NCBI RefSeq assembly: GCF_016592595.1
Contig: NZ_AP012977.1
Coordinates: 248,001-312,000 of the forward strand
Reading direction: 5' to 3'
DNA from: Abyssogena phaseoliformis symbiont OG214
GTDB lineage: Bacteria; Pseudomonadota; Gammaproteobacteria; PS1; Pseudothioglobaceae
Length of the DNA stretch: 64,000 bases
Part shown: piece after piece, positions 31,711 to 36,186 of the stretch
Layout of the letters: every line of letters starts with the position of its first letter
Position numbering within the stretch: the stretch's first letter is position 1
The notes under the pieces: model-generated
The model's database searches: none
Seen by the model: the letters and a program-made list of their open reading frames with translations, nothing else
What the model was told of the DNA's origin: nothing
Program-made: the position numbers and the translations under genes

Positions 31711-32167
31711 TCAAATAATTTTTCAAATCATACAAACAGCCACTTTAATAGTGGCTGTTTTCGTTGCGTGGGTTTCAATTAAAAAACAAAGAGAAACCAT
31801 CAAAAAAGATAAAACTATTTCTTTATTAATGAAAGACTTGGAAGATGATTTTTTAAAGTCTGGCATGAGAATTTTAAGACACATCCATAATAGCGAAGAT
31901 GATGATGTTGCAATTTATGCAAATTCAACTCATTTGCAAGATAAAGAGGCTATCGCAATTAGGAATTTGCTTAATTATTATGAAAATATCAGTGTTGGTG
32001 TTGCTGCTGATATTTATGATATTGAGATGGTTAAAAAATCTCAAAAATCAATGATTATTGCTATTTATAAACAATCTGAACCTTTTATTACGCGTCTTAG
32101 AGAGCAAAATAAAAACCCGAATTTGTATATAGAGTTTGAAAAATTTATCGATATCTTGAATGACTGA
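31697..32167 (+). CDS. DUF4760-like membrane-anchored protein
   Basis: This 156-residue protein has one N-terminal membrane helix (IIFQIIQTATLIVAVFVAWV), then a basic stretch and a helical cytoplasmic domain (AIRNLLNYYENISVGVAADI, EPFITRLREQN). This matches the DUF4760 pattern. The function is unknown. It overlaps the rluB start by 8 bp. Its own ATG has only a weak Shine-Dalgarno sequence (AAGAAGGGTCAA). Confidence 0.65.
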   Translation: MDLSNQIIFQIIQTATLIVAVFVAWVSIKKQRETIKKDKTISLLMKDLEDDFLKSGMRILRHIHNSEDDDVAIYANSTHLQDKEAIAIRNLLNYYENISVGVAADIYDIEMVKKSQKSMIIAIYKQSEPFITRLREQNKNPNLYIEFEKFIDILND

Positions 32168-32888
32168 AAGATTACAAAAACTTATTGCCAGTGCTGGTTA
32201 TGGCTCTCGTCGTTGGGCAGAGCGTTTAATTGAGCAAGGGCGTATTGAGGTTAATAATAAAACTGCCAGAATTGGTGATAAAGCTGAAATAACGGATTAT
32301 GTTAAGATTGATGGGCGGAAAATTGATCTAAGTCGCTATCTTGAACAAGAAATAAAAGTGATTATTTTGAACAAGCAAGCAGGTGTTATTTGTTCTAATT
32401 TAGATGACAAAGGGCGAAAAAGTGTTTATAGTTTATTGCCTAAAGAGTCGCGCTGGGTTATGGTGGGGCGTCTTGATTTGAATACTTCTGGCTTGTTGCT
32501 TTTTACGAATAATGGCGATTTAGCTAATAAACTCATGCATCCCAGTTCACAAATTGATAGAGAATATGCGGTTAGGGTGTTGGGTCAGGTTGAGAATGAG
32601 GATTTAAAACAACTTATTCAAGGTGTTGAACTTGATGATGGCTTTGCTAAGTTTAACCAGATAACGTTTGGCGGCGGTCAGGGCGCTAATCGCTGGTATA
32701 AGGTTGTACTTAAAGAGGGGAGAAAACGTGAAGTAAGGCGCTTATGGGAGGCATTAGGGTTTAAAGTATCACGTCTTATCCGTATTCGTTTTGGCGAGAT
32801 TCGTTTGCCTGATAATCTTAAGGCCAATCAATATGATTATTTAAAACCCGGGCAAGTAAAGTCATTGCTTGATGCTGTAGAACGATAA
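32160..32888 (+). CDS. rluB: 23S rRNA pseudouridine-2605 synthase RluB
   Basis: This RsuA-family enzyme has an S4 domain (RLQKLIASAGYGSRRWAERL, then IEQGRIEVNN) and a catalytic domain with VGRLDLNTSGLLLFTNNGDL, which contains the catalytic Asp. LKEGRKREVRRLWEALG completes the pattern. At 242 residues it lacks the long basic tail of E. coli RluB. RluE or RsuA cannot be fully excluded. Confidence 0.85.
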   Translation: MTERLQKLIASAGYGSRRWAERLIEQGRIEVNNKTARIGDKAEITDYVKIDGRKIDLSRYLEQEIKVIILNKQAGVICSNLDDKGRKSVYSLLPKESRWVMVGRLDLNTSGLLLFTNNGDLANKLMHPSSQIDREYAVRVLGQVENEDLKQLIQGVELDDGFAKFNQITFGGGQGANRWYKVVLKEGRKREVRRLWEALGFKVSRLIRIRFGEIRLPDNLKANQYDYLKPGQVKSLLDAVER

Positions 32889-32913: not shown

Positions 32914-32955
32914 TTGATGTAAGTCAATTACTGGTATCAATTTTATTGATAGAAT
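32914..32955 (+). promoter_or_regulatory. FNR/Anr-type class II promoter
   Basis: TTGAT-GTAA-GTCAA (32914-32927) matches the FNR consensus TTGATnnnnATCAA at 9 of 10 positions. A -10-like TAGAAT lies at 32950-32955. If transcription starts about 7 bp beyond the -10, at 32962, the box is centred at -41.5, the classic activating position. This predicts induction of the following small gene under low oxygen. The box is predicted by eye only. Confidence 0.55.
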
Positions 32956-32989
32956 GTCTTAACTTCAACTTGGTTAAGGTAGGCATAAA

Positions 32990-33109
32990 ATGTTAATGAA
33001 TGAATTAAACGCAGATCCAGTTTTTTATATGAGTTTATTAATAGTTGGCTTGGCAATTGCCTCGTTTTTATTGTTCTTTTTTATGAAAATTTTTAAAACC
33101 AAGCCCTAG
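32990..33109 (+). CDS. 39-residue single-helix membrane protein (DUF3149-like)
   Basis: The sequence MLMNELNADPVFYMSLLIVG followed by LAIASFLLFFFMKIFKTKP has an acidic N-terminus, one membrane helix and a basic end (N-out/C-in by charge). The pattern resembles DUF3149 mini-proteins, of unknown function. The Shine-Dalgarno sequence (AAGGTAGGCATAAA) sits in a short hairpin (CTTAAC/GTTAAG). It is preceded by the FNR-type promoter and followed by a damaged paralogue. Confidence 0.6.
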   Translation: MLMNELNADPVFYMSLLIVGLAIASFLLFFFMKIFKTKP

Positions 33110-33188: not shown

Positions 33189-33301
33189 ATGCTAATCAAT
33201 GAATTAAATACAGACGGTGTTTTGGGGGCGCTATGATTTTCACCGTGTTTAGTGTTGTTTTATTCGTGTATTTAAAGTTTTTTTATCGGTTTAAAAAATA
33301 G
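33189..33301 (+). pseudogene. Damaged paralogue of the 39-residue membrane protein
   Basis: From ATG 33189 the text is MLINELNTDGVLGAL and stops at 33236; the start mirrors MLMNELNADPVFYM of the upstream gene. An overlapping frame (33233-33301) supplies the rest: MIFTVFSVVLFVYLKFFYRF-KK, a membrane helix with basic end. So the second copy has lost its frame and a few codons. Translation of the second part from ATG 33233 by coupling (CTATGA) is possible. No FNR-type box precedes this copy. Confidence 0.5.
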
Positions 33302-33393: not shown

Positions 33394-36186
33394 ATGTCTG
33401 ATTATAAATCCAGTTTAAATCTTCCAGCTACCCAATTCGCCATGAAGGCAAATCTTGCCAATCGTGAAGGCGGGTTTTTAAAAAAATGGCAAGATGATGG
33501 GCTTTATAAACAAATTCGTAATCAAAACAAAGGCAAACCAAAATTTGTTTTACACGACGGTCCTCCTTATGCAAATGGTGATATTCATATTGGTCATGCG
33601 GTTAATAAAGTTTTAAAAGACATGATTGTCAAATCAAAATCTTTGTCAGGTTTTGATGCACCGTATGTCCCAGGTTGGGATTGTCATGGCTTGCCAATTG
33701 AGCTTAATGTTGAAAAAACACACGGCAAAGTAGGCATTAAAATTGATGCTAATACGTTTAGGGCAGAATGTAGAAAATATGCCGACCAACAAGTAACCAA
33801 GCAAAAACAAGATTTTCAACGCTTAGGTATTCTAAGTGATTGGGATAATCCATATTTAACTAAAGATTTTCAGTATGAAGCTAACATTGTTCGCGCCTTA
33901 GGTCAGATTGTTGACAATGGCCATGTGTCTAAAGGCTATAAGCCTGTGCATTGGTGTACTGAGTGTGGTTCTGCTTTAGCAGAGGCAGAAGTTGAGTATA
34001 AAGATAAACAATCAGAGGCGATTGACGTTAAATTTAGAATTATTGATGATTCAATTTTTAATGTAAATATGCCAGTTTCAGTTGTTATTTGGACAACAAC
34101 GCCTTGGACATTACCTGCTAATGAAGCTGTAGCACTCCATCCAGAACTAGATTATGTGTTGGTTGATATTGGCAGTGAATATTTGTTGCTTGCTCAAGCT
34201 TTGGCAGAGGGTTCAGTTAGTCGTTATGATTTTAAGGCTACTATTAGTAAACAGACTTTTTCTGGTAGTGAACTAGAAGGATTAAAAGTAAAACATCCGT
34301 TTTACGATAAGCAAGTGCCAATTATTCTAGGCGAGTATGTAACAACTGATACTGGCACAGGTGCAGTACATACTGCACCTGCACATGGCCAAGAAGATTT
34401 TATTGTAGGGCTAAAATACAATCTAGCTGTTGAGTGTCCAGTAGATGCTAAAGGTGTGTTTTTTAAAGAGACTGAACTTTTAGGTGGTCAGTTTATTTTT
34501 AAAGCCAATGCCAGTGTGATTGAAATTCTTAAACAAGCCAATACATTGGTTAAGCATGAGCCACTAATGCATTCTTACCCACACTGTTGGCGACATAAAA
34601 CCCCTGTTATTTTTAGAGCGACCCCTCAGTGGTTTATCTCTATGCAGCAAAAGGGTCTTAGAGATGCAGTCAATGGGGAAATTTCAAAAGTACAGTGGAT
34701 ACCAGATTGGGGTAAAAAACGTATTGAACTAATGGTAGGCAACCGCCCTGATTGGTGTATTTCTCGTCAGCGGTTTTGGGGTGTACCAATTACTCTGTTT
34801 GTGCATAAGCAAACGGGTGAATTACATCCAAGAACTCAAGAACTGTTCAAAGAAATTTCAAATAAGATTGAGAAAAGTGGCATTGAAGTTTGGTTTGAGT
34901 CTGATGCCCAAGATTTTATTGGCGATGATGCGAGTGATTATGATAAAACCACGGATACACTTGATGTCTGGTTTGACTCAGGCGTGAGTCATTTTGCCGT
35001 GTTAAAGGCAAGAAAAGAACTGTCTGATGTGGCTGATTTATACTTAGAAGGCTCAGACCAACACCGAGGCTGGTTTCAGTCATCACTTATTTCCTCGGTT
35101 GCTATTAATGATAAAGCACCTTATAAAAACGTGTTAACTCATGGTTTTGTTGTTGATAAAGACGGTAAGAAAATGTCTAAATCGCTTGGTAATGTAATGA
35201 GCCCCCAAAAAGTGGTGAATAATTTAGGTGCTGATATTCTACGTTTGTGGATTGCCAGCACCGATTACACGGGTGAAATGACAGTTAGTGATGAGATTTT
35301 AAAACGCTCCGTTGATTCGTATCGCCGTATTCGTAACACCGTGCGTTTTATGTTGGCAAATATGCAAGACTTTAATCCTATTGAACATTTGCTTGACAAT
35401 AAACAAATGCTAGATTTAGACAAATGGATTGTTGCTAAAACTGCTAATTTACAAGCTCAAATTATCAAAGCATACGAACAATATAATTTCCATCATGCGG
35501 TTCAATTGATCTTAAATTTTTGTAGCAATGACCTTGGTGGTTTTTATCTTGATGTTATTAAAGATAGACAATACACCACACAAGCGAACTCTTTGGCCAG
35601 AAGAAGTGCACAAAGTGCATTGTATCATATTGCTGAGGCAATGGTGCGCTGGTTAGCCCCAGTTTTATCATTCACAGCTGAAGAAATTTGGCAAAATATG
35701 CCAAATGAAAAAAATACCAGTATTTTTTTAGAACAGTGGTATCAAGAGCTTAATGAGAATTACAGTAATGATGCGATTAATACTGCGCGTGATATTAGTC
35801 CGCTCATTCGTCAACATATAGAAAGAATGCGTAATGAGAAAATTATTGGTTCTTCGCTAGAAGTCGAAGTGGATATTTATTGTAAAGATAACAATATTTA
35901 CCAATCCTTAAAAAGGTTAGGCGATGAATTGCATTTTGTATTTATTATTTCTGATGCTAAAATTCATTCACCTGATGAACCAATTACCATTCCTGATACA
36001 ACCACTAGAGCTATGGAGTGGGCAGAGAGGGGCGTCTTTGTTACAGTGACTAAGTCTGAGCATCAAAAATGCGTGCGTTGTTGGCATCATAGAAAAGATG
36101 TGGGTAATAATGCCAAACACCCAGAACTTTGTGGTCGTTGTGTTGAGAACGTGGATGGCAAGGGTGAGATAAGGAAGTTCGCTTAA
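33394..36186 (+). CDS. ileS: Isoleucyl-tRNA synthetase
   Basis: The 930-residue class I synthetase has [19 protein letters not shown] (HIGH), an editing domain with [14 protein letters not shown] and [19 protein letters not shown], and [14 protein letters not shown] (KMSKS). The C-terminal zinc motif is [12 protein letters not shown]...LCGRCVENV. It is full length and intact. This is useful evidence that the base sequence is accurate. The stop is directly followed by aroB. Confidence 0.97.

Follow-up and report, generated by a model that had tools for sequence, protein, structure and literature searches.

A putative FNR/Dnr-type promoter before a stand-alone membrane mini-protein gene in a Thioglobaceae symbiont and its relatives

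Within the window, by which we mean the whole 64-kb stretch of DNA that was analysed, a 39-residue frame lies on its own behind a palindrome resembling an FNR binding site. Is this frame a gene, is it controlled by a regulator of anaerobic respiration, and what might its product do? The reading preferred here, with a probability of about 0.6 for the account as a whole, is that it is a stand-alone mini-protein gene activated by a Crp/Fnr-family regulator and that its product is accessory to the low-oxygen respiratory machinery. The frame, termed mini1 as the first of two copies, occupies positions 32990 to 33109 of the forward strand (start ATG at 32990, stop TAG at 33107 to 33109). Its neighbours, both on the same strand and conserved as flanks, are an S4-domain pseudouridine synthase gene upstream (32160 to 32888) and ileS downstream (33394 to 36186), the latter with its own upstream -10-like TATAAT.

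The putative promoter begins with the FNR/Dnr-type box TTGATGTAAGTCAA (TTGAY-N4-RTCAA; 32914 to 32927, forward strand), followed on that strand by a 22-bp spacer (32928 to 32949) whose terminal TGA constitutes an extended -10 element and by the -10 hexamer TAGAAT (32950 to 32955). The position of the hexamer predicts a transcription start at 32962, which places the centre of the box at -41.5 and gives a 28-nt leader (32962 to 32989, forward strand) containing the ribosome-binding-like element AAGG (32976-32979). All 10 specified bases of TTGAYN4RTCAA are matched, with one mismatch to the strict consensus TTGAT-N4-ATCAA, a G for A (TTGAT-N4-GTCAA). Class II FNR-dependent promoters, such as those of Escherichia coli dmsA and narG and the Herbaspirillum seropedicae fnr1 site at -42 (PMC5934665), similarly have a TTGAT-N4-ATCAA-like palindrome over the -35 region, centred at -41.5, and a -10 element 22 bp downstream; the mini1 promoter differs in its G for A, its extended -10, and a start that is predicted. 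A second small palindrome, TATCAAT-TTT-ATTGATA (window 32935-32951), lies between the box and the -10 element and is not seen at the same place in the spacers compared from the other genera.

In the 64-kb window, TTGAYNNNNRTCAA is found once, as the mini1 box, and the combination of a box, 21 to 23 bp, and TANNAT also occurs once. Among 100 dinucleotide shuffles, 7 contain the same combination one or more times, and the arrangement by itself is only modestly improbable. Since shuffled sequence alone can reach it, chance has to be ruled out by comparison with relatives. Sixteen genomes carry an intact first copy (G000, which is the window's genome, G013, G023, G026, G027, G030, G034, G091-G098, and G102), as counted by inspection of the DNA that separates the pseudouridine synthase gene from ileS. 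The box retains at least 9 of 10 specified bases in 14 of the 16, distributed over genera g1, g3, g6, and g8, although these relatives are phylogenetically dependent and such counts overstate independent support. It is perfect in 10 genomes and matches at 9/10 in G013, G034, G095, and G102; G094 has 8/10 and G097 at best 7/10, without a proper -10 element. The half-degenerate boxes of G013, G034, and G095 have the same form as TTAAC-N4-GTCAA, reported as the Fnr site at -41.5 of Dinoroseobacter shibae hemA3 (PMC5398030). The distance from the box to TAGAAT or TACAAT is exactly 22 bp in 13/16 genomes and 21 bp in G091 and G094; among the 14 with a box of at least 9/10, 13 have the 22-bp spacing and the remaining one has 21 bp. 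Because both box sequence and spacing are conserved in relatives, the promoter is more than a chance arrangement. Conservation is nevertheless uneven, as all 11 other genomes of the window's own genus are without an intact copy.

The window's genome contains 53 boxes, including sites before narG, ccoG, coxB, a gene for a 79-aa membrane protein, and mini1 among the 14 that lie outside frames of at least 90 codons (some of these being inside shorter or cut frames), a placement that is not enriched (14/53, p 0.17). In the complete genome of the relative G030, placement outside frames of at least 100 codons is enriched (21/53 counted, p 0.001; two sites in overlapping stretches were counted twice, so that the figure is 21/51). 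Both tests took the window's noncoding fraction of 20% as a stand-in. The G030 boxes precede ccoN, norC, ccoG, nrdD, ubiT, narK, narG, and mini1, hemN with a divergent Dnr-like regulator gene, a second Dnr-like gene, a cytochrome c gene, and an 88-codon version of the 79-aa protein gene; some precede genes with no clear anaerobic role, e.g., a ribosomal protein gene. The gene names were read from translations, with Pfam checks for COX1 (ccoN), a FixQ-like frame, the narG N-terminus, NapB, and the regulators.

A peak of -10-like hexamers follows the G030 boxes at 21 to 23 bp, with 11 matches in 10 of 31 promoter orientations, compared to an expectation of 1.15 per three positions; the ten belong to mini1, ccoN, ccoG, hemN, ubiT, nrdD, the cytochrome c gene, the 88-codon frame, and two others. 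The corresponding count in the window's genome is 5 of 21 orientations against 0.87 expected (mini1, narG, ccoG, the 79-aa protein gene, and one uncertain frame); mini1 itself is included in each genome's count, and one alternative in the search pattern could never match. Under this pattern the G030 boxes before narG, narK, and norC have no -10-like hexamer at 21 to 23 bp, and upstream of ccoN in the window's genome the G030 box is present only in degenerate form. Sequence comparison indicates that the boxes form an FNR/Dnr-type regulon tied to anaerobic and microaerobic respiration. The first-pass annotation had described an FNR-type class II promoter, and geometry, conservation, and regulon context bear this out, with the start resting on prediction; we regard an FNR/Dnr-type activated promoter before mini1 as very probable.

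The frame itself evolves as a protein under purifying selection. Between the window's genome and G027, 30 codons contain 12 synonymous and 4 nonsynonymous substitutions (pS 0.67, pN 0.06); substitutions were counted with one copy per genome, and this pair alone was used, since pairs with G092, G023, G096, and G098 may mix copies. Eight residues are invariant in the 16 aligned peptides (M3, E5, L6, N7, D9, F12, S15, and F29). An AlphaFold2 model has helices at residues 2-7 and 10-37 (mean pLDDT, 84), in agreement with the earlier proposal of a 39-residue, one-helix mini-protein in that a single long helix is predicted. We are almost certain that mini1 is a real protein gene. Its suggested likeness to DUF3149 did not survive comparison: the PF11346 profile, which at 40 positions has a similar length (curated cut-off, 23.2 bits), has no match at the mini1 locus even at E 1 and is absent among the Pfam matches. 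The mini1 family had no match above noise in Pfam, NCBIfam, PHROGs, or PDB, and a herpesvirus family was rejected at a Pfam E value of 0.11, far below its cut-off. The open-licence literature, which is what was covered, yielded nothing on FNR in Thioglobus, no DUF3149 paper, and no such small protein by title, which is weak evidence that the family is so far undescribed.

The hosts of mini1 belong to the Thioglobaceae (SUP05 and clam symbionts). A search with the single protein had matches at E ≤ 1 in 13 of 58 genomes, some by chance, and a 12-row profile gave such matches in 59 of 83 family genomes, strong ones alone being taken as real. In the 83-genome search, no profile E value better than 0.024 was obtained for genera g2, g4, g5, and g9, and g7 and g11 gave no match at all. 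At each of the 22 loci examined from the family search, with the eight weak-match loci L132-L139 set aside, the mini-gene has the pseudouridine synthase gene on one side and ileS on the other. Named genome contigs, scanned separately, gave 14 loci, all with both flanking genes; their titles name, among others, Candidatus Thioglobus pontius, a SUP05 cluster scaffold, a Ruthturnera bin, and a Bathymodiolus heckerae symbiont, as well as Candidatus Ruthia sp. Plio_17_S18, in which the first copy is broken. SUP05 and related symbionts, important in oxygen-poor oceans and difficult to culture, have an apparent anaerobic regulon to which the mini1 family adds an unnamed, lineage-restricted membrane mini-protein. 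From the conserved promoter one would expect low oxygen or NO to induce mini1, a prediction for which existing metatranscriptomes are usable.

Several other explanations of the locus are scarcely compatible with these observations. A chance origin of the palindrome in AT-rich DNA might be argued from the 7/100 window shuffles in which the full arrangement arises somewhere, but the box's sequence and spacing are conserved and the same spacing recurs before known anaerobic genes, and we consider the idea hardly credible. A role of the frame as an ileS leader or attenuator, and not as the gene of a working protein, is almost as improbable: mini1 stands upstream of ileS at every locus examined, but nonsynonymous change is low, a second paralogue often intervenes, and a TATAAT shortly before ileS is present in 22/22 spacers. 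Tandem copies, small size, and a single helix are also features of small hydrophobic stress peptides or type I toxin-like peptides acting on the membrane itself. We consider this origin very unlikely, if somewhat less so than an ileS leader, given the short 28-nt leader, the conserved polar N-terminus NELNxD, the same flanking genes at every locus examined, and the lack of a match in PHROGs.

Which regulator would act on the preferred promoter is suggested by the Crp/Fnr proteins of the window's genome, where one intact gene (254 aa; G000:C1:456817-457581) and one broken gene exceed the PF13545 cut-off. The intact regulator has a cyclic-nucleotide-type sensor domain and a Crp-type helix-turn-helix (PF13545, 1.3e-11; PF00027, 2.9e-11) and matches NCBIfam FnrL at 1.4e-30, below the cut-off of that family, and PDB FNR at 2.1e-14. 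It has three of the four cluster cysteines (C20, C23, C29, and C122 of E. coli), the third N-terminal one being missing, and we therefore call it FnrL-like and not FNR. Each of the 15 FnrL-like proteins viewed (10 in a scripted alignment and 5 separately) has the CxxC motif and the C122 equivalent. The recognition helix of the regulator in the window's genome reads KVHINR, compared to VETISR in E. coli FNR. Neither result named as refuting the first-pass annotation, a genome without an Fnr homologue or a lack of conservation in relatives, was obtained, although the intact Crp/Fnr regulator has an incomplete cysteine set and a different recognition helix. Upstream of the FnrL-like gene are a split napA-like gene, a NapB gene, and genes reading as flavocytochromes; downstream are the subunit I gene of a b-type oxidase (COX1) and a gene whose translation reads as a copper ATPase.

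The match between regulator and box across genomes is incomplete. At least one Crp/Fnr protein over the family cut-off is present in 12 of the 16 mini1 genomes, and none over that cut-off was found in G091, G095, G096, or G097. G097 (98% complete) is without both regulator and box, which is consistent with a link between the two; G091, G095, and G096 (89, 66, and 92% complete) have a good box and no regulator found, which is inconsistent with it. D. shibae provides a parallel, with FnrL and Dnr regulators acting on one box type whose targets include denitrification, heme, and cbb3 genes, according to PMC5398030; the regulator of the window's genome differs in its cysteines, as the CxxC motif and the C122 equivalent are kept and the third N-terminal one is missing.

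Oxygen control, as initially proposed, is favoured by the FnrL-like regulator, but Dnr-type regulators use the same box as FNR, and the signal can only be inferred. The same promoter and protein could respond to nitric oxide or denitrification through Dnr/NnrR-type control and not to oxygen as such. Dnr-like regulators (recognition helix PESFSR, C-terminal cysteine cluster) occur in many mini1 genomes, G034 and G093 have one and no FnrL-like match, and a Dnr site is indistinguishable by sequence from an Anr/FNR site (PMC5398030). The window's genome, however, keeps an intact box and mini1 although its Dnr-like gene is broken, its narG is fragmented, and a search at E 1e-30 found no norB; the regulator left to it is FnrL-like. 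We consider nitric oxide an unlikely signal. Oxygen is the likelier main signal of the mini1 promoter, and we hold this with some confidence, because the sole intact Crp/Fnr regulator resembles FnrL and has three of the four cysteines of the FNR cluster. The broken Dnr-like gene (G000:C1:1402252-1403665; L068) contains a stop and frame changes and lies beside a shortened hemN-like frame.

Within genus g1, mini1 is intact only in the window's genome (1/12), and broken or shortened remnants are present in G002, G003, G007, G010, and G011, with G010 keeping the box and an intact second copy, mini2. The FnrL-like gene is likewise intact only in the window's genome; an intact Dnr-like gene occurs in G004 alone, a genome without mini1, which counts against a link between regulator and mini1. 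Of the other g1 genomes, 10/11 have neither regulator type intact and 0/11 have an intact mini1, while ccoN is present in 11 of the 12 g1 genomes (not in G008). Thus mini1 and the regulators are both mostly lost in g1 while cbb3 stays. This shared loss in clam-symbiont relatives implies that an oxygen switch and its small target can vanish inside a host, and general genome shrinkage could explain the joint loss without a direct link. The window's genome itself shows signs of losing nitrate respiration; narG and narK are each broken up over several frames (G000:C1:850000-862000; L223), and the napA-like gene is split between two frames (G000:C1:450542-453080; L069).

We propose that a Crp/Fnr-family activator, most likely the intact FnrL-like protein in the window's genome, would bind the box at low oxygen (or on an NO or nitrate signal) and, from its class II position, contact RNA polymerase to switch on the stand-alone mini1. 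The product would be a single-helix membrane mini-protein, probably N-out/C-in as judged by its basic C-terminus, and might join or tune the low-oxygen respiratory machinery as an accessory, nonessential helix, in the manner of CcoM-type or CydX-type subunits. Among the candidate partners tested, only cbb3 is compatible with retention of mini1 in nearly all genomes, and cbb3 does not need mini1. ccoN is present in 15/16 intact-mini1 genomes (not in G027, 85% complete; in G095, 66% complete, it is partial and contains a stop). An obligate cbb3 subunit is contradicted by the retention of ccoN in 11/12 g1 genomes compared to one intact mini1. NorB, found at E 1e-30 in 9/83 genomes, is missing from the window's genome at that threshold and present in only 6/16 with intact mini1 (two at only 38-40% identity), and it was rejected as a partner; Nar is unlikely, with narG in pieces in the window's genome.

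Mini1 has neither an operon link nor a match to a known family that would point to a partner. A CcoQ/FixQ identity was discarded, as mini1 has no FixQ profile match and is not in the cco operon; in G030 that operon has its own FixQ-like frame (1.7e-4, below cut-off), which also counts against mini1 being CcoQ. Searched against PDB oxidase chains, the mini1 profile gave no match, the only PDB hits being retinoblastoma protein chains at E 0.47 or worse. CcoM, a 36-aa subunit of the Pseudomonas stutzeri cbb3 oxidase (PMC10433244), resembles mini1 as a protein of <40 aa tied to oxygen-limited respiration, but the mini1 profile matched no PDB oxidase chain (a comparison that does not assume CcoM to be among them) and cbb3 persists without mini1. 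CydX and other small oxidase subunits, described in PMC11742914 as short, often unannotated membrane proteins of terminal oxidases, share with mini1 its small size and predicted membrane location, but CydX is encoded in an oxidase operon and mini1 stands alone. Our best guess is that mini1 has an accessory role at a respiratory complex that works at low oxygen, a tentative view given the inferred partner and with odds somewhat below even.

Downstream of mini1, the tandem paralogue mini2 is frameshifted in the window's genome relative to intact relatives, with a 5' piece of 15 aa ending in a stop (33189 to 33236) and a 3' piece of 22 aa (33233 to 33301), both on the forward strand. It is intact in 10 genomes, namely 9 of the 16 with intact mini1 and G010, and none of these 10 copies is preceded by a box (best, 6-8/10 in the 115 bp upstream). 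Mini2 peptides gave weak hits in Pfam to COX4 (E 0.039) and FixP_N (E 0.11), which are far below the cut-offs and were dismissed. Mitochondria use switched oxidase isoforms. Since the N-terminal signature NELNxDxVF[YW] is shared by the two copies, an anaerobic mini1 and a default mini2 might compete for one docking site on one membrane complex, which would provide low-oxygen and default versions of the same accessory helix. This oxygen-switched pair is distinctly improbable. The mini1-mini2 gap is 13-24 nt in G091, G094, and G097, compared to 60-104 nt in the other six genomes with both, and mini2 may be on the mini1 transcript in those three, which counts against a switched pair.

An extra first copy of the mini-gene is present in G023, G092, G096, and G098. 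In G092, G023, and G096 (L110, L116, and L117, respectively), the extra upstream copy has a perfect box only 8-10 bp from its -10 element; the box overlaps the -35 region, and these copies are possibly repressed rather than activated. The extra copy in G098 has a box of 9/10 and a 21-bp spacing.

Two other small proteins were encountered among the genes preceded by boxes. A 76-aa hydrophobic protein without a Pfam match in G030 (L201:1589-1816) has the box TTGACATTAGTCAA 79.5 bp before its start. The 79-aa protein of the window's genome (G000:C1:910481-910717; L222:1982-2218) is a second orphan small membrane protein, also without a Pfam match; its G030 counterpart is the 88-codon frame (L212:1230-1493), and the gene has the same box in both genomes, followed by TATAAT after 23 bp in G000 and 21 bp in G030.
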